Origin: Mytilus galloprovincialis
Taxonomy: Eukaryota; Mollusca; Bivalvia; Mytilida; Mytilidae
Length of the DNA: 64,000 nucleotides
Direction of reading: 5' to 3'
Assembly: GCF_965363235.1 (NCBI RefSeq)
Contig: NC_134844.1
Span: forward strand, 53,440,872 to 53,504,871
The translations under genes were made by a program, and so were the position numbers. Below the pieces are notes generated by a model. That model had not been told where the DNA came from. It did not search any database and worked only from the letters and a program-made list of their open reading frames with translations. This document shows positions 1 through 46,335 of the stretch, piece by piece; the first letter of the stretch is position 1; each line of letters begins with the position of its first letter.

Positions 1-164
1 AAGAATATGTTCCATTTAAATGTGCCGTAATCAAAATTGGAAATCGTAAAAATCATACACAACTCTTTCTACGTGGATGCAGTTAATAAGCAACGGATAC
101 ATTGTATGTGATATATGTATCACTTATTTGACATCATTATTAAACTTTTCGTAGTTTAAATTCC

Positions 165-510
165 CCGAGGGTATCATCAGACAAATAGTCAACACTTCAG
201 GATGTACTGACATGCATTATCATCGATACGGTCATATTTATAAATTAACTGTCTACAACATTTTTTAATTTTTGAAATACTAAGGCTGTTCTTCCTCAAG
301 AATAGATTATCTTAGCAGTATTTGGAAAAATTTTAAGCAATCTTTGTCCTCAATTCTCTTCAACCTCGTATTTGGCCTTTTTTTTTCTTTTTTGGGGATT
401 TATGCGTCACTGATGAGTCTTTTGTCGACTAAAGGCGCGTCTGGCGTATATACAAAATTTTATTCTGGTATCTATGAGGAGTTTAATACAGATAGATACA
501 AAGTTATTAT
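165..510 (+). repeat. Decayed retrozyme-like repeat copy with hammerhead remnant
   Basis: This stretch matches the reverse complement of the tandem element at 3995-4625: a CCCCGAGGG block, the ACTAAGG block near 280 and the AGTATTTGG block near 320 occur in the same order. At about 414-445 it keeps CTGATGA, a stem II-like segment and GCGCGTC followed by TGGCGT, which pairs with GCGTCA upstream (helix I). The GAAA box of the hammerhead reads TAAA, so the ribozyme is probably inactive. The short open frames over it are chance. Confidence 0.65.
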
Positions 511-1119: not shown

Positions 1120-1330
1120 ATTGTTTGTACTTGTTTGGCTTTATGACTCTTTTGATCTGAGCGTCACATATGAGTCATATGTAGACGAAACGCGCGTATG
1201 TTTACAAAAGTATGAATTTTTCGAAATACTAAGGATTTTTTTTTATCCCAGGTAAAGATTACCTTAGCCGTATTTGGCACAATTTTTTGGGAATTTTGTG
1301 TCCCAAATGCTCTTTAACTTTGTACTTGTT
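1120..1330 (+). repeat. Short-form retrozyme-like repeat with near-complete hammerhead motif
   Basis: Sequence starting TTTGTACTTGTTTGGCTTT recurs about 190 bases later at 1316, so slightly more than one short unit is present. Between them, around 1165-1203, lie GCGTCA, a mutated CTGATGA box (CATATGA), a stem II closed by GTC and GAC, GAAA, CGCGCG and GTA. Helix I and the conserved uridine-turn box are damaged, so activity is unlikely. The copy lacks the middle part present in the unit at 3995-4625. Confidence 0.6.
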
Positions 1331-1585
1331 TGCCTTTATAACTATTTTGAAACTCAAAGTCGAATATATACTGACAACGGCATTGCGAAAAACAAAAGCA
1401 GACACACAACAGTACAGACTTCACAACACAGAAATGCCAAGACTGAGCAACACGATCCCCATTAAAACTTGGGGTGATCTCAGTGGCTTCATAATCGTAA
1501 GAAGATCCTGCGCCACACATGGCATTCGTCATGCAACTCATATATGTATAAACAGGGTGACAATGCTAATTTCGTAGGTCACAAT
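1331..1585 (-). repeat. Interspersed mussel repeat (CACGACGGGTGCC family), diverged
   Basis: Contains ACTGACAACGGCAT, GCAACACGATCCCC, GGGGTGATCTCA and AGATCCTGCGCCACACATGG, in the same order as the copy at 54890-55145. No coding potential; the overlapping open frames are repeat shadows. Confidence 0.55.
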
Positions 1586-2845: not shown

Positions 2846-3961
2846 ATGTGCAAGAATCTATCATTGACAAAAATGATTTGTATGAGTTTGGTATTGTGTA
2901 GCGTATTATACTTGATCCGATATAAAGTACTATTTCCAAAAGGCACAAGTTTACATGAAACGTTATCAAAAACAGAATCTTCAGCTTTACCAGTATTGTT
3001 TCCTAAAGGTATACGTGTACATAAAACGTTTACGAAAGCGACATCTTCTGCCTTACATGGAGAACGAGATTCACAGCGGAATGATTTTCCAGATGTATTA
3101 ACATTTGCTGACAATAACTGGCAACATGAGAGTCTTTGTAAGCCATACAAAATGTTCCTCAACCATAGTGATTTCCTTTTACTAAGATATACAACAAACG
3201 CTGGGAGTGTGAAAATATTTACACATTCTTTAAAAGACGGAATGTCGTTAATAATCAGTAGATCAGGTGCTTTTGAACTTAAAACAATAAACAGAGTACT
3301 GTATCAGCTGCAACAAGATCCAAATTTGAATCTTATTGATATTGGAACCAATATTGGACAACATTCAATAGCTGCAGCACTGATTGGAAGGGATTCGATC
3401 GCCATTGACAATGCAGTATCGAATATCGAACACGCATGTGCGTCTGTTGATTATCTAAATATTGGTTCACGAATAACATTGATTCATAACATTTTGTCCG
3501 ACTCGAGCGGGAAACGGATGTTTAGATACAGTGCTACCCATACTGATTTCGGTGTTAATCATGTTGATTCTGATGGAATATGGGACAAGATGAAAAAGAA
3601 ATTCTACGAATTCAATTTCGGAAAAACTGTGCAAGAAAATTCTACCACGTTAGATAACATTTTGTTCCTTCCACAAATGCACAAGTTTCAGAAAATATTT
3701 GTAAAAATGGACGTAGAGGGTCACGAACATAGGGTTCTTCTCGGCGCTAAACAATTTTTTAAACGACTAGACGTGCATGGTATAATTATGGAATGGACGT
3801 GGCATGTAAGGCGGCCGTCATCGGAAATTATAAAAACTCTTATGGCTGAATGGAATTTCAAACCATATCAATTTTTTGAAACTACAGAAAGCGATCTAAG
3901 TTTAAAAAATTCTGACCTGTGGCCGCCAGATGTTCTGTGGCTTCCAATGAAAATACATTAG
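2846..3961 (+). CDS. FkbM-family methyltransferase, type II membrane protein
   Basis: A 371-residue uninterrupted frame. The N-terminus is a short basic stretch then a hydrophobic segment (about residues 9-26), fitting a Golgi/ER signal anchor. Residues about 160-175 contain LIDIGTNIGQHS, the S-adenosylmethionine-binding loop, and about 292-305 contain KMDVEGHEHRVLLGA, the hallmark of the FkbM (Methyltransf_21) fold. Family members O-methylate glycans or small molecules; the substrate here is unknown. A pyrimidine tract ending TTTAG lies just upstream (2841), so the coding exon probably follows an intron in the 5' untranslated region, which supports the first ATG. A long tail of related genes without introns is common in molluscs. 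A retrozyme-like repeat begins about 34 bases after the stop, in antisense orientation; no AATAAA is seen before it. Confidence 0.88.
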   Translation: MCKNLSLTKMICMSLVLCSVLYLIRYKVLFPKGTSLHETLSKTESSALPVLFPKGIRVHKTFTKATSSALHGERDSQRNDFPDVLTFADNNWQHESLCKPYKMFLNHSDFLLLRYTTNAGSVKIFTHSLKDGMSLIISRSGAFELKTINRVLYQLQQDPNLNLIDIGTNIGQHSIAAALIGRDSIAIDNAVSNIEHACASVDYLNIGSRITLIHNILSDSSGKRMFRYSATHTDFGVNHVDSDGIWDKMKKKFYEFNFGKTVQENSTTLDNILFLPQMHKFQKIFVKMDVEGHEHRVLLGAKQFFKRLDVHGIIMEWTWHVRRPSSEIIKTLMAEWNFKPYQFFETTESDLSLKNSDLWPPDVLWLPMKIH

Positions 3962-3994
3962 ATATTTTATTAGCTCTTAGAAATACATATATTC

Positions 3995-4625
3995 TATAGT
4001 TATCAAAGGTACAAGGATTATAATTTAGTACGCCAAATTACAAAATATGTATAAAGCCAAACAAGTACAAAATTGAAGAGCATTGAGGATCCAAAATTCA
4101 AAAAAGTTGTGCCAAATTCGGCTACGGTAATCTATGCCTGGAATAAGAAAATCCTTAGTTTTTCGAAAAATTCAAAGTTTTGTAAACAGGAAAATCATAA
4201 AAATACCACATTATTGATATTCATGTCAACACCGAAATGTTGCCTACTGGGCTGGTGATACCCTCGGGGACGAAACGTTCACCAGTAGTGGCATCGACCC
4301 AGTGCTTTAAATAGATATCAAAGGTACCAGGATTATAATTTAGTATGCCAGACGCGCGTTTCGTCTATATTAGACTCATCAGTGACGATCATATCGAAAT
4401 ATGTATAAAGCCAAACAAGTACAAAATTGAAGAGCATTGAGGATCCAAAATTCCAAAAAGTTGTGCCAAATACGGCTAAGGTAATCTATGCCTTGAATAA
4501 GAAAATCCTTAGTTTTTCGAAAAATTCAAAGTTTTGTAAACAGGAAATTTCTAAAAATGACCACATTATTGATATTCATGTCAACACCGAAATGTTGACT
4601 ACTGGCCTGGTGATTCTATCAGTGA
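3995..4625 (-). mobile_element. Tandem (dimeric) retrozyme-like element
   Basis: Two head-to-tail units of about 316 bases: the block ATCAAAGGTAC, GGATTATAATTTAGTA occurs at about 4002 and again at 4317, and AAGCCAAACAAGTACAAAAT at 4053 and 4407, with high identity in between. The junction between the units carries an intact hammerhead ribozyme on the minus strand; in the first unit the corresponding site is partly deleted. Tandem units with a type I hammerhead are the structure described for animal retrozymes, non-autonomous elements that give small circular RNAs. I saw no clear flanking target duplication. Strand is that of the ribozyme. Confidence 0.78.
4347..4386 (-). ncRNA. Type I hammerhead ribozyme, core intact
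   Basis: Read on the minus strand: helix I 5' strand GTCA (4386-4383), CTGATGA (4382-4376), stem II GTCT/AGAC (4375-4372 and 4366-4363) with a five-base loop, GAAA (4362-4359), a minimal helix III CGCGCG (4358-4353), then GTC ending at 4351 and helix I 3' strand TGGC (4350-4347). All core bases match the family. Predicted cleavage lies between 4351 and 4350. The tiny helix III is known from newt and schistosome hammerheads, which usually work best as dimers. The next helix I pair (4346 with 4387) is a mismatch. Confidence 0.85.
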
Positions 4626-8433: not shown

Positions 8434-9201
8434 TTAATTTTCTTCTAAAAGTAATTCAGTTTCACACTCAGAGCTGTTCGATTGGTCAAATGTCCGTTGT
8501 ATTGGTTCTTTTTGTCTATATAGTTTTGAAAATACGCAGACAATAAATATAAATGCAATAAAAATAATTCCACAATGCCAAGTAAATATTAAACCTGTAT
8601 TCATCAAGCTGTGTTTATCGTTACTTTTCCAAGGTTCAGAGAATGGGTTTTTGTATAATATGCAGCCTACTTGATAAAACCAAGTTCCTTGTAAAATCAA
8701 AAGATACGACCGAAATAATGGTATAGTTACTACATTTTTAAACTTCATTTCTAATAAGGTAACAACAAATGTTGTCAAGATTACAAATATAAGCAAATGA
8801 TGCAAGACCACATTGAAAGTGTCCCGTCCAAAAAGATGATATTTGAATAAAATTGCTTCCATTATCAATGCAAAGCTTAGGGAGACGTAATCGAGATCTT
8901 TTATAGGAAGTGTGTTGAAGAAGACCATAAGATCTATTATCCCTGTTAATCCGAAGAAACCGTACATTGTTGCATGTTGTTTATTGTGTAATGCTAATTC
9001 AGCAATAAGTCCAATTGTTATTAACAATACTTTACCCACCGCCTCTATAGGAAACCTCTTTAACTTGAATGTAACGGTTGATGAAAAGGGTACATTGCTG
9101 TTTTTGGATTCAAAATATCTCCTCAATGTCTGTACCATCCACCATATTCCAATGATTATAAAAATTGACCCTGGAAAGGCATGTCCCATAAAACTTCCCA
9201 T
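8434..9201 (-). CDS. TMEM45-family (DUF716) multi-pass membrane protein
   Basis: A 255-residue frame that starts MGSFMGHAFPGSIFIIIG, the conserved opening of vertebrate TMEM45A/B, and continues with the family blocks HATMYGFFGLTGIIDL (about residue 77), a run of helices, and LLILQGTWFYQVGCILY (about 167-183). About seven membrane segments are visible; the C-terminal tail is acidic and polar. Length is close to the 275 residues of TMEM45B. The family sits in endosomal or other internal membranes and its biochemical role is unsettled. On the minus strand a pyrimidine-rich tract ending in TTCTAG lies about 11 bases before the ATG, so an upstream intron, probably in the leader, is likely. The whole coding region lies in one exon. 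Confidence 0.9.
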   Translation of the reverse strand: MGSFMGHAFPGSIFIIIGIWWMVQTLRRYFESKNSNVPFSSTVTFKLKRFPIEAVGKVLLITIGLIAELALHNKQHATMYGFFGLTGIIDLMVFFNTLPIKDLDYVSLSFALIMEAILFKYHLFGRDTFNVVLHHLLIFVILTTFVVTLLEMKFKNVVTIPLFRSYLLILQGTWFYQVGCILYKNPFSEPWKSNDKHSLMNTGLIFTWHCGIIFIAFIFIVCVFSKLYRQKEPIQRTFDQSNSSECETELLLEEN

Positions 9202-9544: not shown

Positions 9545-9934
9545 TTAAAAGAACACATCTTCATTCAGATCATTTGAAAAAAACGTCAAGTTTGTAAGCA
9601 TATCTTCTAAATGTCATTAGAGAAACAGATTATACTTCCTTATCTCTTGCAGTACGATATCTATTCATTCTCGACAGTCACATTTTGAATATTTAAAACA
9701 ATCGACGAGCCTCGCGTTTTATGTAAGAAAATGTCCCCGTCTCGAGTTGAAAAATAATGTACTACACTCGATGCAGTATGTGTTGCAATAAATAATATAT
9801 AAATGGAGAACCCCATTATTAGACGACCCAGGATGACAGATGACAAACACCTAGCCTTGATGAGGAAACATCCATTTTTTTATATCAATATTAATTTAAA
9901 ATCTTAAACATAAATTACGATGTATATAAACTCA

Positions 9935-10185
9935 TCATAGATACCAGGATTAAATGTGAATGCCAGACGCGAGTTTTATCTCTGGAAGACTCATCAGTGA
10001 CTCGAGAATAAAAAAAAGTTAAAAGGTCAATAAAGTACGAAGTTAAAGAGCATGGAAGACCCAAAACTTTGAAAGGTTTTTCTTTAAAACAGCGTAAGGA
10101 ATGTCTACTCCTGGGGTAGGATATCCTTTAGTATCCAGTTACCTCATTGATATTTAATAATCTTATAACATAGATAATTAGTACC
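9935..10185 (-). repeat. Decayed retrozyme-like repeat copy
   Basis: Shares with 4317-4500 the order ATACCAGGATTA, GCCAGACGCG, AGACTCATCAGTGA, GAGCATGGA and a TCCTTTAGTAT block. On the minus strand the hammerhead keeps CTGATGA and GCGTCTGGC, but the GAAA box with its preceding stem base is altered, so the ribozyme should be dead. Confidence 0.6.
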
Positions 10186-10227: not shown

Positions 10228-10460
10228 TTTATCCTAGGGCTAGGATGAAATTTGAAAAAGCAGGGCAGGAGTTTTTAGTAACCAAAAGGCAGGATGAGCA
10301 ACTTGGCAAAAAAAGGCAGGATGACAATTTATGTAAAAAAAGTCAGGATAAACTAATGAAAAAAAGCTAGTACAAATAGAGTGAACAATAAAAAATCAGG
10401 ACAGAGATTACAACAAAACAAATGCAGGACAATATTTTTCATCCTAGACCCAATACCTTC
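10228..10460. repeat. Relative of the MITE at 41976, ends lost
   Basis: Has CTAGGGCTAGGATGAAATTT, repeated GGCAGGATGA motifs, GGACAGAGATTACA and TTTTTCATCCTAG in the same order as 41976-42243. The outer inverted repeats of that element are not recognisable here. Confidence 0.5.
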
Positions 10461-18980: not shown

Positions 18981-19877
18981 ATGGTACATTTTAAAGGAGA
19001 TTTCTGGGGACACCATTATGATGATAAGTTCCCACCTAGCAGAACATTCAATAACTCAAATAAATGCAAAAAGTTTTCTACGTTCATAACAGAAACCGTT
19101 GTGGATAGACTTAGAAATGGTTCAATCGAATGCTTAGGAAAAGTAGGTTTAGTTAAACGACCCCACATTGTAGCACCTTTAACCATCGCGCCAACAAAAC
19201 CTAGATTATGCATTAATCTAGTGTATTTGAACAATTGGATCAAAGATGTACCGTTTAGTTTAGTCACTCTCAAAAATGTACATCGAGCCGTAAGAGAAAA
19301 TGCATATTTTACCTCAATAGATGATAAATCAGGTTTTGATAATGTTATGTTATCCGAGGATTCCCGTGGACTAGTGGGTTTCCAGTGGGGTGGATTTTAT
19401 TTCATTTTCAAAACATTACCGTTTGGTTTTAAACTTTCTAGCTACATTTATCACACATTAAATCTGCAAGCAACATCGTATATTAGGAGAAAGTTTTTGA
19501 TTCCTGTACATTTGTATATGGATGATCGTCTTGTCGAGGAAGTAAGAAATTCTGGTTTAAAAGCAGGTGTCAGTTCCGCTTTATTGGCAAATTACATTGT
19601 GTGTGAAGTTATAACTAGATATGGGTATTGCATTAATTTAGACAAGACCGTGTTTATCCCGTCCCAATCAGTAGTATTTTTGGGATTTGTTGTTGATTCC
19701 GTAGCTAGATGTTTCAGAATAACTGAATCCAAAAAACAAAAATTTATTAATTTACGCGAGGATTGTTTAAGGAAAGGTGCTATTACGGTGCTAGATTTTA
19801 CAAAAATTAGTGGGTCGTTATATTTCTTTTATGTTCGCTGTTCCGGCAGCAAAACTTTACACTCGGGAGATGAATAA
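18981..19877 (+). mobile_element. Reverse transcriptase domain (part of the YR retrotransposon)
   Basis: Blocks typical of DIRS/Ngaro reverse transcriptases: TKPRLCINLVYLNNWIKDVP, SIDDKSGFDNV, FIFKTLPFGFKLSSYIYH and the catalytic box LYMDDR, then a FLGFVVDS block. The large domain of the element's polyprotein; fossil copy. Confidence 0.85.
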
Positions 19878-20480
19878 TGCAATTTCATTAGGAATCCGCA
19901 ACCAAACAAGCATCCCAATGACAAAAGATTTAAAGGACGAACTTAATAATTGGCGGTTTTTGGATTCATGGACAGGAAATTTAGAATGGAAGAAAGAGAG
20001 ACATTTAGTTGTAAACATTTATACAGATGCTTCTATGTTCAAATGGGGTGGATATTTTAGAATAAATGATACAGAGCATAAAGTGGGCGATTCGTGGGCA
20101 CATGAAATGTTATCGCTTCCTATTATGGTACTAGAGGCTAAAGCTTTGTTATATGTTTTAAGATCCGTACGGGAAGACATAAAGGGTAGTCGGGTGGACG
20201 CAAACGTAGACAATCAGGCCTTGATAGGTGCTTGGAATAACGAAGGTTCCAAATCTATCCACTCTTAAAGAAATTTTTCAATTGACTTTGGATTTAGACG
20301 TAATGTTAAATTTACATTTTGTACCATCTAAATTGAATTTAGCAGATGAGCCATCGAGAAAACTTAGTAAATCGGATGCGAAATTAGATAGCGATATATG
20401 GAGTACAATACAAGAGTATTTTGGTGACATTACAGGACACACGATCAACTTGATGGCTTTAGATTCTAATAGCATGATAG
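19810..20480 (+). mobile_element. RNase H-like domain (part of the YR retrotransposon)
   Basis: Contains IYTDASMFKWGGYF (first acidic box), a VLEAKALLYVL block with the second acidic residue, VDNQALIGAW, and LHFVPSKLNLADEPSR, the order seen in the RNase H regions of DIRS-like elements. Confidence 0.8.
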
Positions 20481-20580
20481 ACAGAAATGGTAAAATTCTA
20501 AAACATTTCACTCCAACTGTTTCTCCATTGTCGTCAGGTGTAAATTTATTTGCCCAAGCCGTGGATAAAAGTGAAATCTG

Positions 20581-21426
20581 TTGTACGTATTTCCTCCTTT
20601 CGCATTATTATTACCGGTGTTGTCTTTCATCGGGGAGAATATGTTAAATTGTACCGTGATATTACGTGCGGATGGAGTAATAGCCACATGGGTTCCAACA
20701 TTTTATGAATTGATACACGATGCTTTTATTGTTGGTAACAAGGGACAAAAGGGTGTTTTGAAATATCCTACAAAGAAAGGTTATGATCCAAATGGTATAA
20801 GGTCATCTGGAAATCTGTGGGCAGTTCGCATAAGTTCAAAGCAATCCCTGTGTTTTAATTATGGAAAATTATTATTTCTTAATGAACCACTTATTTCTAC
20901 TAAATTTCACTTGTTATGTATTGGTGATTCAATAAGATTTTTACAGTGGCGAAAAGATTTTAAAAACCCAATGGTAAATGTGTTTTCACAAGGAGGTGCT
21001 CTTTTGTGTGAAATAACACCCCAAATTGAGAGACTAACTAGAATGCATCCTCCTAGACTTTTGTTTATTCATGTAGGTGTCAATAATGTAAGCAAATCCT
21101 TTCTGTTTGAAAGCGAGTTCAGCCAGTTATTAATTACAACTCAACAAATAGAACATTTAGCACTTATACTTCAGTACACGCGTACGAGTGATAGGCACGT
21201 ATCTTTTGTATTATCATCAATAATCAGGTGTAAAGATGAAGCTATAAACGCAAGATCGGCTATCATTAATGAAAATATAGAAAGTTTATGCAAGCGTAAT
21301 TGTTGGATGTTCATGGACAATTCAAACATTAATTGTAGACATTTGAGAGATTGTGTGCACTTGAATGAAGAAGGTCAATTAATTTTTCTAAACAATTTGT
21401 ATGGTGTATTAAAAAATGTTTGGTGA
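20581..21426 (+). mobile_element. SGNH-hydrolase domain (part of the YR retrotransposon)
   Basis: The first part (VFPPFALLLPVLSFIGE and following) is the region after RNase H in Ngaro-like elements. It leads into LLCIGDSIRFLQW (block I, GDS), a FIHVGVNN block (Asn/Gly blocks) and HLNEEGQ (catalytic His block), the signature order of SGNH/GDSL hydrolases. The role in retrotransposition is unknown; similar domains occur in some Ngaro and CR1 elements. Confidence 0.75.
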
Positions 21427-21436
21427 TTTTTCTTGT

Positions 21437-21474
<38 letters not shown>

Positions 21475-21639
21475 TATAAAAATTTGAGTTAACACTTCAC
21501 AATGTATTTTGGTTTTTATTATCAGGTTTTATATATTTTGTTTTAGGAGTATCTCATGAAAAAATTTGGTGCCCCTACATAACGTGTTCAGCTATTCTAA
21601 ACAGAAATGTAGTTTGAAAAAAGAGATTGAATTTTTTTT

Positions 21640-22730
21640 TCATATTTTTAGATTCGCAGAAAAATCTTACTAATGCGAGTCCAGAGGACATTAGGAAATT
21701 TTTCATTTTCAAAGAAAAGGGTGGGAAAACACAGTTACACGATATTAGCTGCCCTTTACGCACGACACACGGCCTTCAAACTTGCCAATGCCCAAGGATT
21801 TTGGCATCAAAGTCAGTTGATTCTTTACTGGGAAAAATCAGAGCATTATTTAGAGACGAGGGCAGATCAGGAGAGTGGAATCCTATGCTTCTTACGGGTA
21901 ACCCTGTTGCCTCACATTTGTTAAAAAACATCTACATGTCATAAATCAGGAGCAGGCTAACGCTAACATTTCTGTAAAACAAGCTCCTCCATTAATGTTT
22001 AGTAAGTTGGGGAAGCTATGCAGACATTTATCATGTAGAGCTTCAGTTGAGAAAGGTCCTATTTCGAACTTTCTCTATGCAAGAGACCTGGCTTATTTCT
22101 CAATTTTATGTCATTCTGGTAGCAGAGGGGGCGACCTTGGTTTATTGACAGCAGACAGATGTTTTCAAATACCCGACTCAGAGGGCATTTTTGTGTCTCA
22201 AACGGCCGGAAAAGTCGATAATTTGGATAATCCGAGAAATTTCATAGTTCTTCCTTCAAAGAATTCTGATATTTGTCCGGTTAAAAACTTAACAAAATAC
22301 ATCACCAACGCTAAGGAGTTAAGCATTACTCTTGTTGAAGGGTATGTTTTCCGTATACGAGATAAAGTGTCACGCAAAATCGTTAACGAACCAGTTACTT
22401 CATCTTGCATGACAGAGAGACTCAAATTATACATTTAAATGTGTTGAAATTATACAAAAGGGAAACTTCCCATAGCAGTAGGAGAGGATGTGCAATTACA
22501 TTGCGTATGCTAGGTGTTAATGATGAAGGGATAAATCAACACGTAGGGTGGGTCACAAAAAAACATGGTTGATCATTATGCTAATGTAGGGAAATTGATA
22601 AGTCCTAAAGGACCGTCCTCAATTTTGTCGCAGGTTGCGGAAAATTTAGTGAAAGGAAGTTCTTCTTTTGATAAAGTTTCAAATCAATATACTGGTTTGA
22701 GCAAATTGAAAAGTTTCAGTTTCAATTAGT
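21640..22730 (+). mobile_element. Tyrosine recombinase domain (part of the YR retrotransposon)
   Basis: Blocks FLYARDLAYFSILCHSGSRG (first catalytic Arg), an HSSRRGC segment (His-x-x-Arg) and a later region with the terminal His/Tyr block, in the order of DIRS-type recombinases, which integrate the circular DNA copy without an integrase. Confidence 0.75.
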
Positions 22731-22913
22731 TATGATTGTGTTGAACAAAAGAATAATAAAGTCTTCTTCTAACATGGGAAAGCTTTTTTATAAGTATTGG
22801 ATATGTTTTATGGTAATAGTTGTTGAATAAAGAGGTTGGAACATTGCATAAGGTTTTGTATTTAGCCAGTCAGTCATGTCAAATCATTTCAATGAGACCC
22901 GTTTATACATCGT

Positions 22914-25905: not shown

Positions 25906-26168
25906 GCATCGACAGAGGCGGTCCAGCTTTACCCCGAGACCATCGACAGAGGCGGTCCAGCTTTACCCCGAGACCATGGACAGAGGCGGTTCAGCTTTAC
26001 CCCGAGACCATCGACAGAGGCGGTTCAGCTTTACCCCGAGACCATCGACAGAGGCGGTTCAACTTTACCCCGAGACCATCGACAGAGGCGGTTCAGCTTT
26101 ACCCCGAGACCATCGACAGAGGCGGTTCAGCTTTACCCCGAGACCATCGACAGAGGCGGTTCAGCTTT
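25890..26168. repeat. 34 bp tandem array, eight copies
   Basis: Eight nearly identical units containing CCCCGAGACCAT and GACAGAGGCGGTTCAGC. The unit is 34 bases, not a multiple of three, so each strand stays open in rotating frames without being coding. Its reverse contains GGTCTCGGGGTA, the A-box region of the adjoining SINE head. Confidence 0.85.
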
Positions 26169-45009: not shown

Positions 45010-46335
45010 TGTGCCCGTCGATGATATGTATTTCGTTTGCCACTGGACGTTAATCAGTCATACAAGTCCGGTCTGTGTTTATGTTACTTGTTTTCTGCAT
45101 CGATCTGATGAGTTAAGCCCTTTTTAGATATAATTTTTATAAAATAATAGTTTATTCGTATGTTATGCTGTTTTAGGTTAGTGAAGGGTTTGGAACCCAC
45201 ACACATGTTTAATCCCGCCACATTCTGTATGTGCCTGTCTCTAATCAGGTTTGGAACCCACACACATGTTTAATCCCGCCACATTCTGTATGTGCCTGTC
45301 TCTAATCAGGTTTGGAACCCACACACATGTTTAATCCCGCCACATTCTGTGTGTGTGTGTCTCTAATCAGGTTTGGAACCCACACACATGTTTAATCCCG
45401 CCACATTCTGTATGTGCCTGTCTCTAATCAGGTTTGGAACCCACACACATGTTTAATCCCGCCACATTCTGTATGTGCCTGTCTCTAATCAGGTTTGGAA
45501 CCCACACACATGTTTAATCCCACCACATTCTGTATGTGCCTGTCTCTAATCAGGTTTGGAACCCACACACATGTTTAATCCCGCCACATTCTGTATGTGC
45601 CTGTCTCTAATCAGGTTTGGAACCCACACACATGTTTAATCCCGCCACATTCTGTATGTGCCTGTCTCTAATCAGGTTTGGAACCCACACACATGTTTAA
45701 TCCCGCCACATTCTGTATGTGCCTGTCTCTAATCAGGTTTGGAACCCACACACATGTTTAATCCCGCCACATTCTGTATGTGTCTGTCTCTAATCAGGTT
45801 TGGAACCCACACACATGTTTAATCCCGCCACATTCTGTATGTGCCTGTCTCTAATCAGGTTTGGAACCCACACACATGTTTAATCCCGCCACATTCTGTA
45901 TGTGTCTGTCTCTAATCAGGTTTGGAACCCACACACATGTTTAATCCCGCCACATTCTGTATGTGTCTGTCTCTAATCAGGTTTGGAACCCACACACATG
46001 TTTAATCCCGCCACATTCTGTATGTGCCTGTCTCTTATCAGGAGCCGGTAATTCAGTTGTTGTTCGTTTGTTGCTGTATATCATATTTGCTTCTTTGTTT
46101 ATTGTATCGTTCATACATCAGACCATTAGTATTCTTGTTTAAATGTTTTTTGTTCGAATGGTTTTACTTTTGTCATATTAAATCCTGTATAATTACAGAC
46201 TGTGCAATAAGGATTTTGCTATTTGTGGAAGGCCGTCATGTGACCTACATTGTGTATCTGTCAACTCTTATATCATTTGGTCTGTGGTTGAGAGTTGTGT
46301 CATTTGCAATCATATCACATCTTCTTGTGTAAATC
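45010..46335 (+). repeat. Interspersed mussel repeat (CACATTCTGTATGT family) swollen by an internal array
   Basis: 5' part with GATCTGATGAGTTAAGCC, a tandem array, then GGAGCCGGTAATTCAGTTGT and a tail GTGTCATTTGCAATCATATC, ACATCTTCTTG. The order is that of 5470-5990; the piece holding CATGTTTAATCCCGCCACAT has been amplified. Confidence 0.75.
45188..46041 (+). repeat. 61 bp tandem array, fourteen copies
   Basis: Each unit begins GTTTGGAACCCACACACATG and contains CCCGCCACATTCTGTATGTG and TCTCTAATCAG. Copies differ at only a few bases (for example TGTCTG for TGCCTG), which argues for recent expansion. Unit starts run from 45188 to 45981 at exact 61-base steps apart from the first. Confidence 0.95.

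Follow-up and report, generated by a model that had tools for sequence, protein, structure and literature searches.

The window, by which we mean the whole stretch of 64,000 nucleotides from Mytilus galloprovincialis analysed here (contig NC_134844.1), contains an open reading frame with an FkbM domain (Pfam PF05050, E = 1.7e-8) that ends at 3961 and, 34 bases further on, a tandem element with its sense on the minus strand (Table 1). Both this distance and the presence of two tandem units agree with the earlier note on this DNA. The unit length of about 316 bases given there did not hold: the true period is 354-355 bp, as seen from two direct repeats (D1 and D2) and from the 355-bp spacing in copies elsewhere, and a spacing of 315 is a property of the 40-nt repeat D3 only, because 41 alignment columns have been deleted in between. 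This deletion removes the entire ribozyme and its cleavage site from the sense-downstream unit. A search with up to 2 mismatches found the deletion junction at a single genome site, the present one; the loss of the ribozyme is therefore local and does not mark a spreading variant. Between the two units, 16 of 264 sites differ, and four differences from the majority unit of the family are common to both. The right border given in Table 1 comes from BLAST of the family unit and moves to 4626 under laxer scoring. The element has the family's common 3' end, and its start at 4614 lies at a site without a counterpart in the family. Its GC content (0.347, with 0.389 in the majority unit) fits the low-GC criterion for retrozymes (<45%); of the two or more tandem ribozymes by which retrozymes are also recognized it retains one, the downstream ribozyme being gone.

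Table 1. Features of the retrozyme insertion, in positions of the window.
Feature	Position	Strand	Basis or remark
Whole retrozyme insertion, ~1.75 units of a 355-bp family	3996..4614	(-) sense	BLAST of family unit; direct repeats
Sense-upstream unit, 5'-truncated, ribozyme kept	4310..4614	(-)	13/305 aligned sites differ from majority unit
Sense-downstream unit, 41 alignment columns missing	3996..4309	(-)	18/314 aligned sites differ from majority unit
Sense 3' end of the insertion	3996..4001	(-)	Equals the family's common 3' end, unit position ~40-41
Type I hammerhead ribozyme	4345..4388	(-)	RF00163, 33.7 bits; core letters intact; helix I of 4 contiguous pairs
Predicted self-cleavage bond	4350..4351	(-)	3' of C17; C17 is the complement of 4351
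Candidate 7-bp target duplication ATTCTAT, left copy	3991..3997	(+)	Overlaps element end by 2
Candidate 7-bp target duplication ATTCTAT, right copy	4613..4619	(+)	Overlaps element end by 2

An intact hammerhead with pairing helices had been noticed from the sequence on the minus strand at 4347-4386, with a covariance-model search suggested as a check. That search, run as an E-value scan of 1.3 kb, matched RF00163 (Hammerhead_1) over its full length (model positions 1-45; E = 2.8e-6) at the place expected. The core letters stood up to this scrutiny; the helices did so in part, as helix I is weakened to 4 contiguous pairs vs 6 in the family majority unit. The predicted cut between 4351 and 4350 coincides with the bond 3' of C17. 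A default Rfam scan of the whole window listed no hammerhead, because the score falls 0.3 bit under the curated gathering score of 34 for this model. The genome-wide search with RF00163 recovered the locus again at 33.7 bits, together with enough others to give at least 37 matches, at least 29 of them above the cut-off (lower bounds, from 74 candidates scored). Of the bare pattern CTGATGA-N6-36-GAAA the window has two instances vs 1.40 expected, so that the pattern alone proves nothing; what exceeds chance expectation is the covariance score of the predicted hammerhead taken together with the family to which it belongs. An exact search of viral contigs with the ribozyme string gave 0 matches. 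Despite its weakened helix I, the lone ribozyme may cut a minus-strand transcript once. Release of a monomer needs two cuts, one at each end, and with one ribozyme left no RNA circle is therefore expected from the locus. The suggestion that this copy may still make a circular RNA thus has to be given up: with the second ribozyme and its cleavage site deleted, the window copy is unlikely to yield a circle on its own.

The family to which the element belongs is abundant in the genome searched (1.38 Gb, 331 contigs). A 324-base query from the window gave at least 95 matches (40 scored of 6144 candidates), mostly 92-95% identical and many of them spaced 355 bases apart. An exact 27-mer of the unit was found at 2861 genome sites and a 19-nt tail at 10434, with 0 for the controls (a backwards control in the case of the 27-mer). 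The core is intact in 42 of the 71 core-covering units in a sample of 45 loci, and at least two intact cores lie within the fetched stretch at 8 of these 45; in a wider set, partly picked by the ribozyme, the figure is 89/127. Selection on the ribozyme core among the genomic copies was considered and rejected, there being no excess conservation in the 45-locus sample: core and remainder are conserved at 95.3% vs 94.1%, a difference reached by 28% of random position sets. The genomic copies look like freely decaying products.

Non-LTR retrozymes with about 5000 ribozymes and repeats of ~350-390 bp have been described from M. galloprovincialis, with self-cleavage in vitro and abundant circular RNA, the RNA being mostly in circular forms (Cervera and de la Pena 2020, PMC7229834; construct DRtz_Mg353). 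The present family is like them in its type I hammerhead, in its tandem non-coding units in that size range, in its low GC and in its thousands of copies, and the window copy departs from them in that just one of its two units has a ribozyme and that helix I is weaker. The identification as an animal retrozyme of the kind known from mussels, also made in the earlier note, is well supported by the RF00163 match, the tandem units, the abundance and the fit to the published family in size, type, layout and composition, a likeness drawn with the published description. Plant LTR retrozymes share the hammerhead-flanked units and the RNA circles; for their part they carry type III hammerheads, LTRs, a primer-binding site, a polypurine tract and 4-bp target duplications (PMC7761336), and no type III hammerhead, LTR or 4-bp target duplication was noticed in the present family. 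The biv-TRIM elements, reported from the same mussel species, are likewise small, non-autonomous, built on direct repeats and also found in tandem (PMC6934838). However, their terminal repeats of 202-218 bp surround an internal domain of 77-80 bp, and the description consulted does not mention a hammerhead (PMC6934838).

The ends of the insertions were mapped at loci picked by the 27-mer (unit positions 173-199), which lies far from the observed 3' end; an exact pick of this sort favours less diverged copies. The sample comprised the first 30 listed of the 2861 places and 21 further listed places, all on one contig (C1), and was reduced to 45 elements by leaving out 6 places that repeat an array represented before. 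The sense 3' end could be read in 42 of the 45, the other 3 running beyond the fetched stretch. It fell in a nine-base bin 38-46 from the cleavage site in 36 of the 42, with ~1.1 expected if uniform, for a bin that was chosen after a look at a set including the first 30 places; among the 21 loci added later, the same bin holds 17 of 18 readable ends. Three loci with common flanks (L074-L076) look like one copied event, and counting them once gives 34/40. The six exceptional 3' ends lie at 222-279, and one of these (L056) has the tail immediately after it, as an internal deletion would leave it. The same peak of 3' ends is seen also in the wider set, which is biased in that some of its loci were chosen for their ribozyme or for the opposite-strand motif considered below. 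The 5' ends, in contrast to this constancy, are scattered, with at most 5 of 40 in any nine-base bin, and the length of the 37 elements with both ends readable runs from 67 to 2064 bases, the longest being chained over separate segments. Classically, target-primed reverse transcription is recognized by a constant 3' end combined with 5' ends that scatter. The fixed 3' end about 41 nt past the predicted cleavage site resembles the product of such a process working from a fixed entry point. We have not seen this end pattern in those portions of the retrozyme and mussel repeat literature that were consulted, and we do not present it as unpublished.

Target duplications at these insertions are weak, slightly commoner than chance and not convincing. 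In 70 insertions the mean junction-repeat score was 4.50 vs 4.08 (sd 0.12) for re-paired flanks, and 12 of the 70 scored 6 or more where ~7 were expected. An earlier test with another score gave 5.25 vs 5.01 (sd 0.14) for 52 insertions. Both tests took only insertions ending in the bin 38-46. Where metazoan non-LTR retrozymes have target duplications, these are expected to exceed 4 bp; the candidate in the window measures 7 bp (Table 1).

A related second family was met at 8 places through a pattern containing its tail, and these places are therefore no unbiased sample. In seven of the eight, the resemblance breaks off within GAGTT(TATT). The eighth (L040) continues into another unit, whose next bases resemble those past the end of the first family. 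From these alignments the two retrozyme families appear to end at a homologous place. Three further segments (L026, L047 and L066) are ~69-72% like the unit; their likeness stops at unit position 3 and is followed by a common TGCAAGAAAATTGGTACCGTTAA, and they are perhaps copies of a third retrozyme family. Pieces of retrozyme unit also lie elsewhere in the window. The one at 162-477 (+) is ~75% identical to the majority unit and ends with the second-family tail, and in its ribozyme-like stretch the GAAA is broken when judged by eye. Another, at 9922-10132 (-), is 71% identical and ends with the same tail, and a third, at 1124-1350 (+), is 86-89% identical.

We propose that the element in the window is, very probably, a decayed copy of a non-autonomous, non-coding retrozyme of the animal type, inserted from a fixed 3' start. 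In live copies the tandem units would be transcribed and each type I hammerhead would cut, after which a host ligase would close the monomer into an RNA circle, steps that are known for mussels (PMC7229834). The insertion ends suggest what may follow. With a nick in the target providing the primer, a borrowed reverse transcriptase would engage its template (the circle, or else an RNA whose end has been processed to this place) at one fixed point, some 41 nt beyond the cleavage site, and would then copy a variable distance round the circle before stopping at no particular position. Insertions made in this way would measure anything from a fraction of a unit to several units, and they would agree in their 3' ends and vary in their 5' ends. 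On this account, the window copy would have arrived as ~1.75 units and later lost the ribozyme of its downstream unit. For the general statement, that target-primed reverse transcription is how animal retrozymes insert and that it begins at a defined RNA entry site ~41 nt past the cut, homologous in at least two families, we have a cautious preference and claim nothing stronger. If it is true, the retrozyme RNA carries a landing site for reverse transcriptase that is separate from the ribozyme, and each insertion is a record of the starting point of the borrowed enzyme and of the distance it covers round the circle.

Another explanation for the ends is that the template is a linear multimeric transcript, with a 3' end set at unit position ~41 by processing or by termination, and that reverse transcriptase starts there. 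This we consider possible but rather unlikely. It predicts the ends as observed, 3' constant and 5' scattered, and makes an internal start on a circle unneeded; yet we identified no processing signal at unit position ~41, and the predominance of circular forms in the mussel RNA (PMC7229834) argues against it. The end data themselves do not tell apart a circle and an RNA processed to that end as the template. Distinctly improbable, in our opinion, is that the family is ordinary satellite DNA that has spread by unequal exchange, or that it resides inside Helentron/HINE-type elements as in the Pacific oyster, the hammerhead being incidental. Long arrays do exist, as on one contig (C11) with spacings of ~355 across roughly 6 kb, and the weakness of target duplications here has a parallel in oyster HINEs, which lack them (PMC7492417). 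In the sample, however, most elements are short and stand alone, one end being constant and the other scattered, and the flanks differ between them. In addition, the oyster HINE repeats are 140-180 bp monomers between related flanking segments (PMC7492417), and circular RNAs of repeats like the present ones are found in the mussel (PMC7229834).

The window copy itself, degenerate and of a known kind, is of little weight, and it is the end pattern of the family that is worth following. This pattern bears on a question left open by Cervera and de la Pena (PMC7229834), namely which enzyme reinserts animal retrozymes and how it begins on a circle, and it offers a testable start site and a tail for comparison with candidate partner elements.

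Penelope-like elements with hammerheads have been proposed as mobilisers (PMC7229834) and are present in the same genome. GIY-YIG matches numbered 147, with open frames of up to 911 aa. The copies, which are probably Penelope-like, often lie in close inverted pairs, and several of the 3' ends fetched (within L080-L095) run into (TA)n. Eight loci and eight 3' ends, 16 of the 147 places, were compared with the retrozyme unit and showed no significant similarity (best E 0.07). A regular expression found hammerhead-like strings in some of the 16, and an Rfam scan of 12 of them gave no hammerhead up to E 3. From these comparisons, Penelope-like elements as the partner of the retrozyme are unsupported. 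We also searched with a 16-nt tail whose five upstream bases were forced to be unlike the retrozyme, which gave 88 sites, 55 of them with GACAC upstream. Four of the 55 were fetched (L116-L119), and their mutual alignment extends well past the tail on the downstream side; the tail is there therefore internal to another repeat. These copies represent a repeat family of at least 55 members with the 16-nt retrozyme tail inside it, after GACAC. As a shared-tail partner this repeat was rejected, the tail being internal in the four fetched copies and not at an element end. No partner with a shared tail was thus found among the 16 of 147 Penelope-like places and the four GACAC copies.

Folding predictions, which ignore tertiary contacts, lend the ribozyme no support and count against an easy reading of its activity. 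The hammerhead is absent from the minimum-energy fold of the bare 48-nt stretch, in the window copy and the majority unit alike. When the majority unit is folded as a circle, helix II has a probability of 0.13 and helix I of <0.002, and the stability of the circle does not exceed that of 100 shuffled sequences (z -0.9). Some viroids have hammerheads in both polarities. The notion that the same is true of this family, with the opposite motif acting as a second ribozyme or as a lock that pairs with the first, has very little to commend it, and we set the motif aside as a resemblance that has decayed or is due to chance. There are 93 exact sites of CTGATGATACCCTCGGGGACGAAAC on the opposite strand (control 0), and the hairpins around it are arranged by eye as in a three-way junction, but the majority unit has CTGGTGA at this motif and so a broken core, stem II is by eye without its two closing pairs, hammerheads were reported on the sense strand only when 4 loci were scanned with Rfam by E-value, and in the circular fold just described the core pairs with unit positions 60-110 at a mean probability of only ~2e-5.

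The remainder of the window holds several features of other kinds. At 8434-9201 (-) there is an open reading frame of 255 aa with a DUF716 domain (E = 3.2e-16). Remains of a retroelement occupy 18981-22750, where an open reading frame with a reverse transcriptase domain (PF00078, E = 2.5e-15) is followed by further open frames, one of which was scanned against Pfam and gave no match. Two minisatellites were also seen, one at 25907-26168 with 7.7 copies of a 34-bp unit (97% match) and one at 45187-46042 with 14 copies of a 61-bp unit (98% match).
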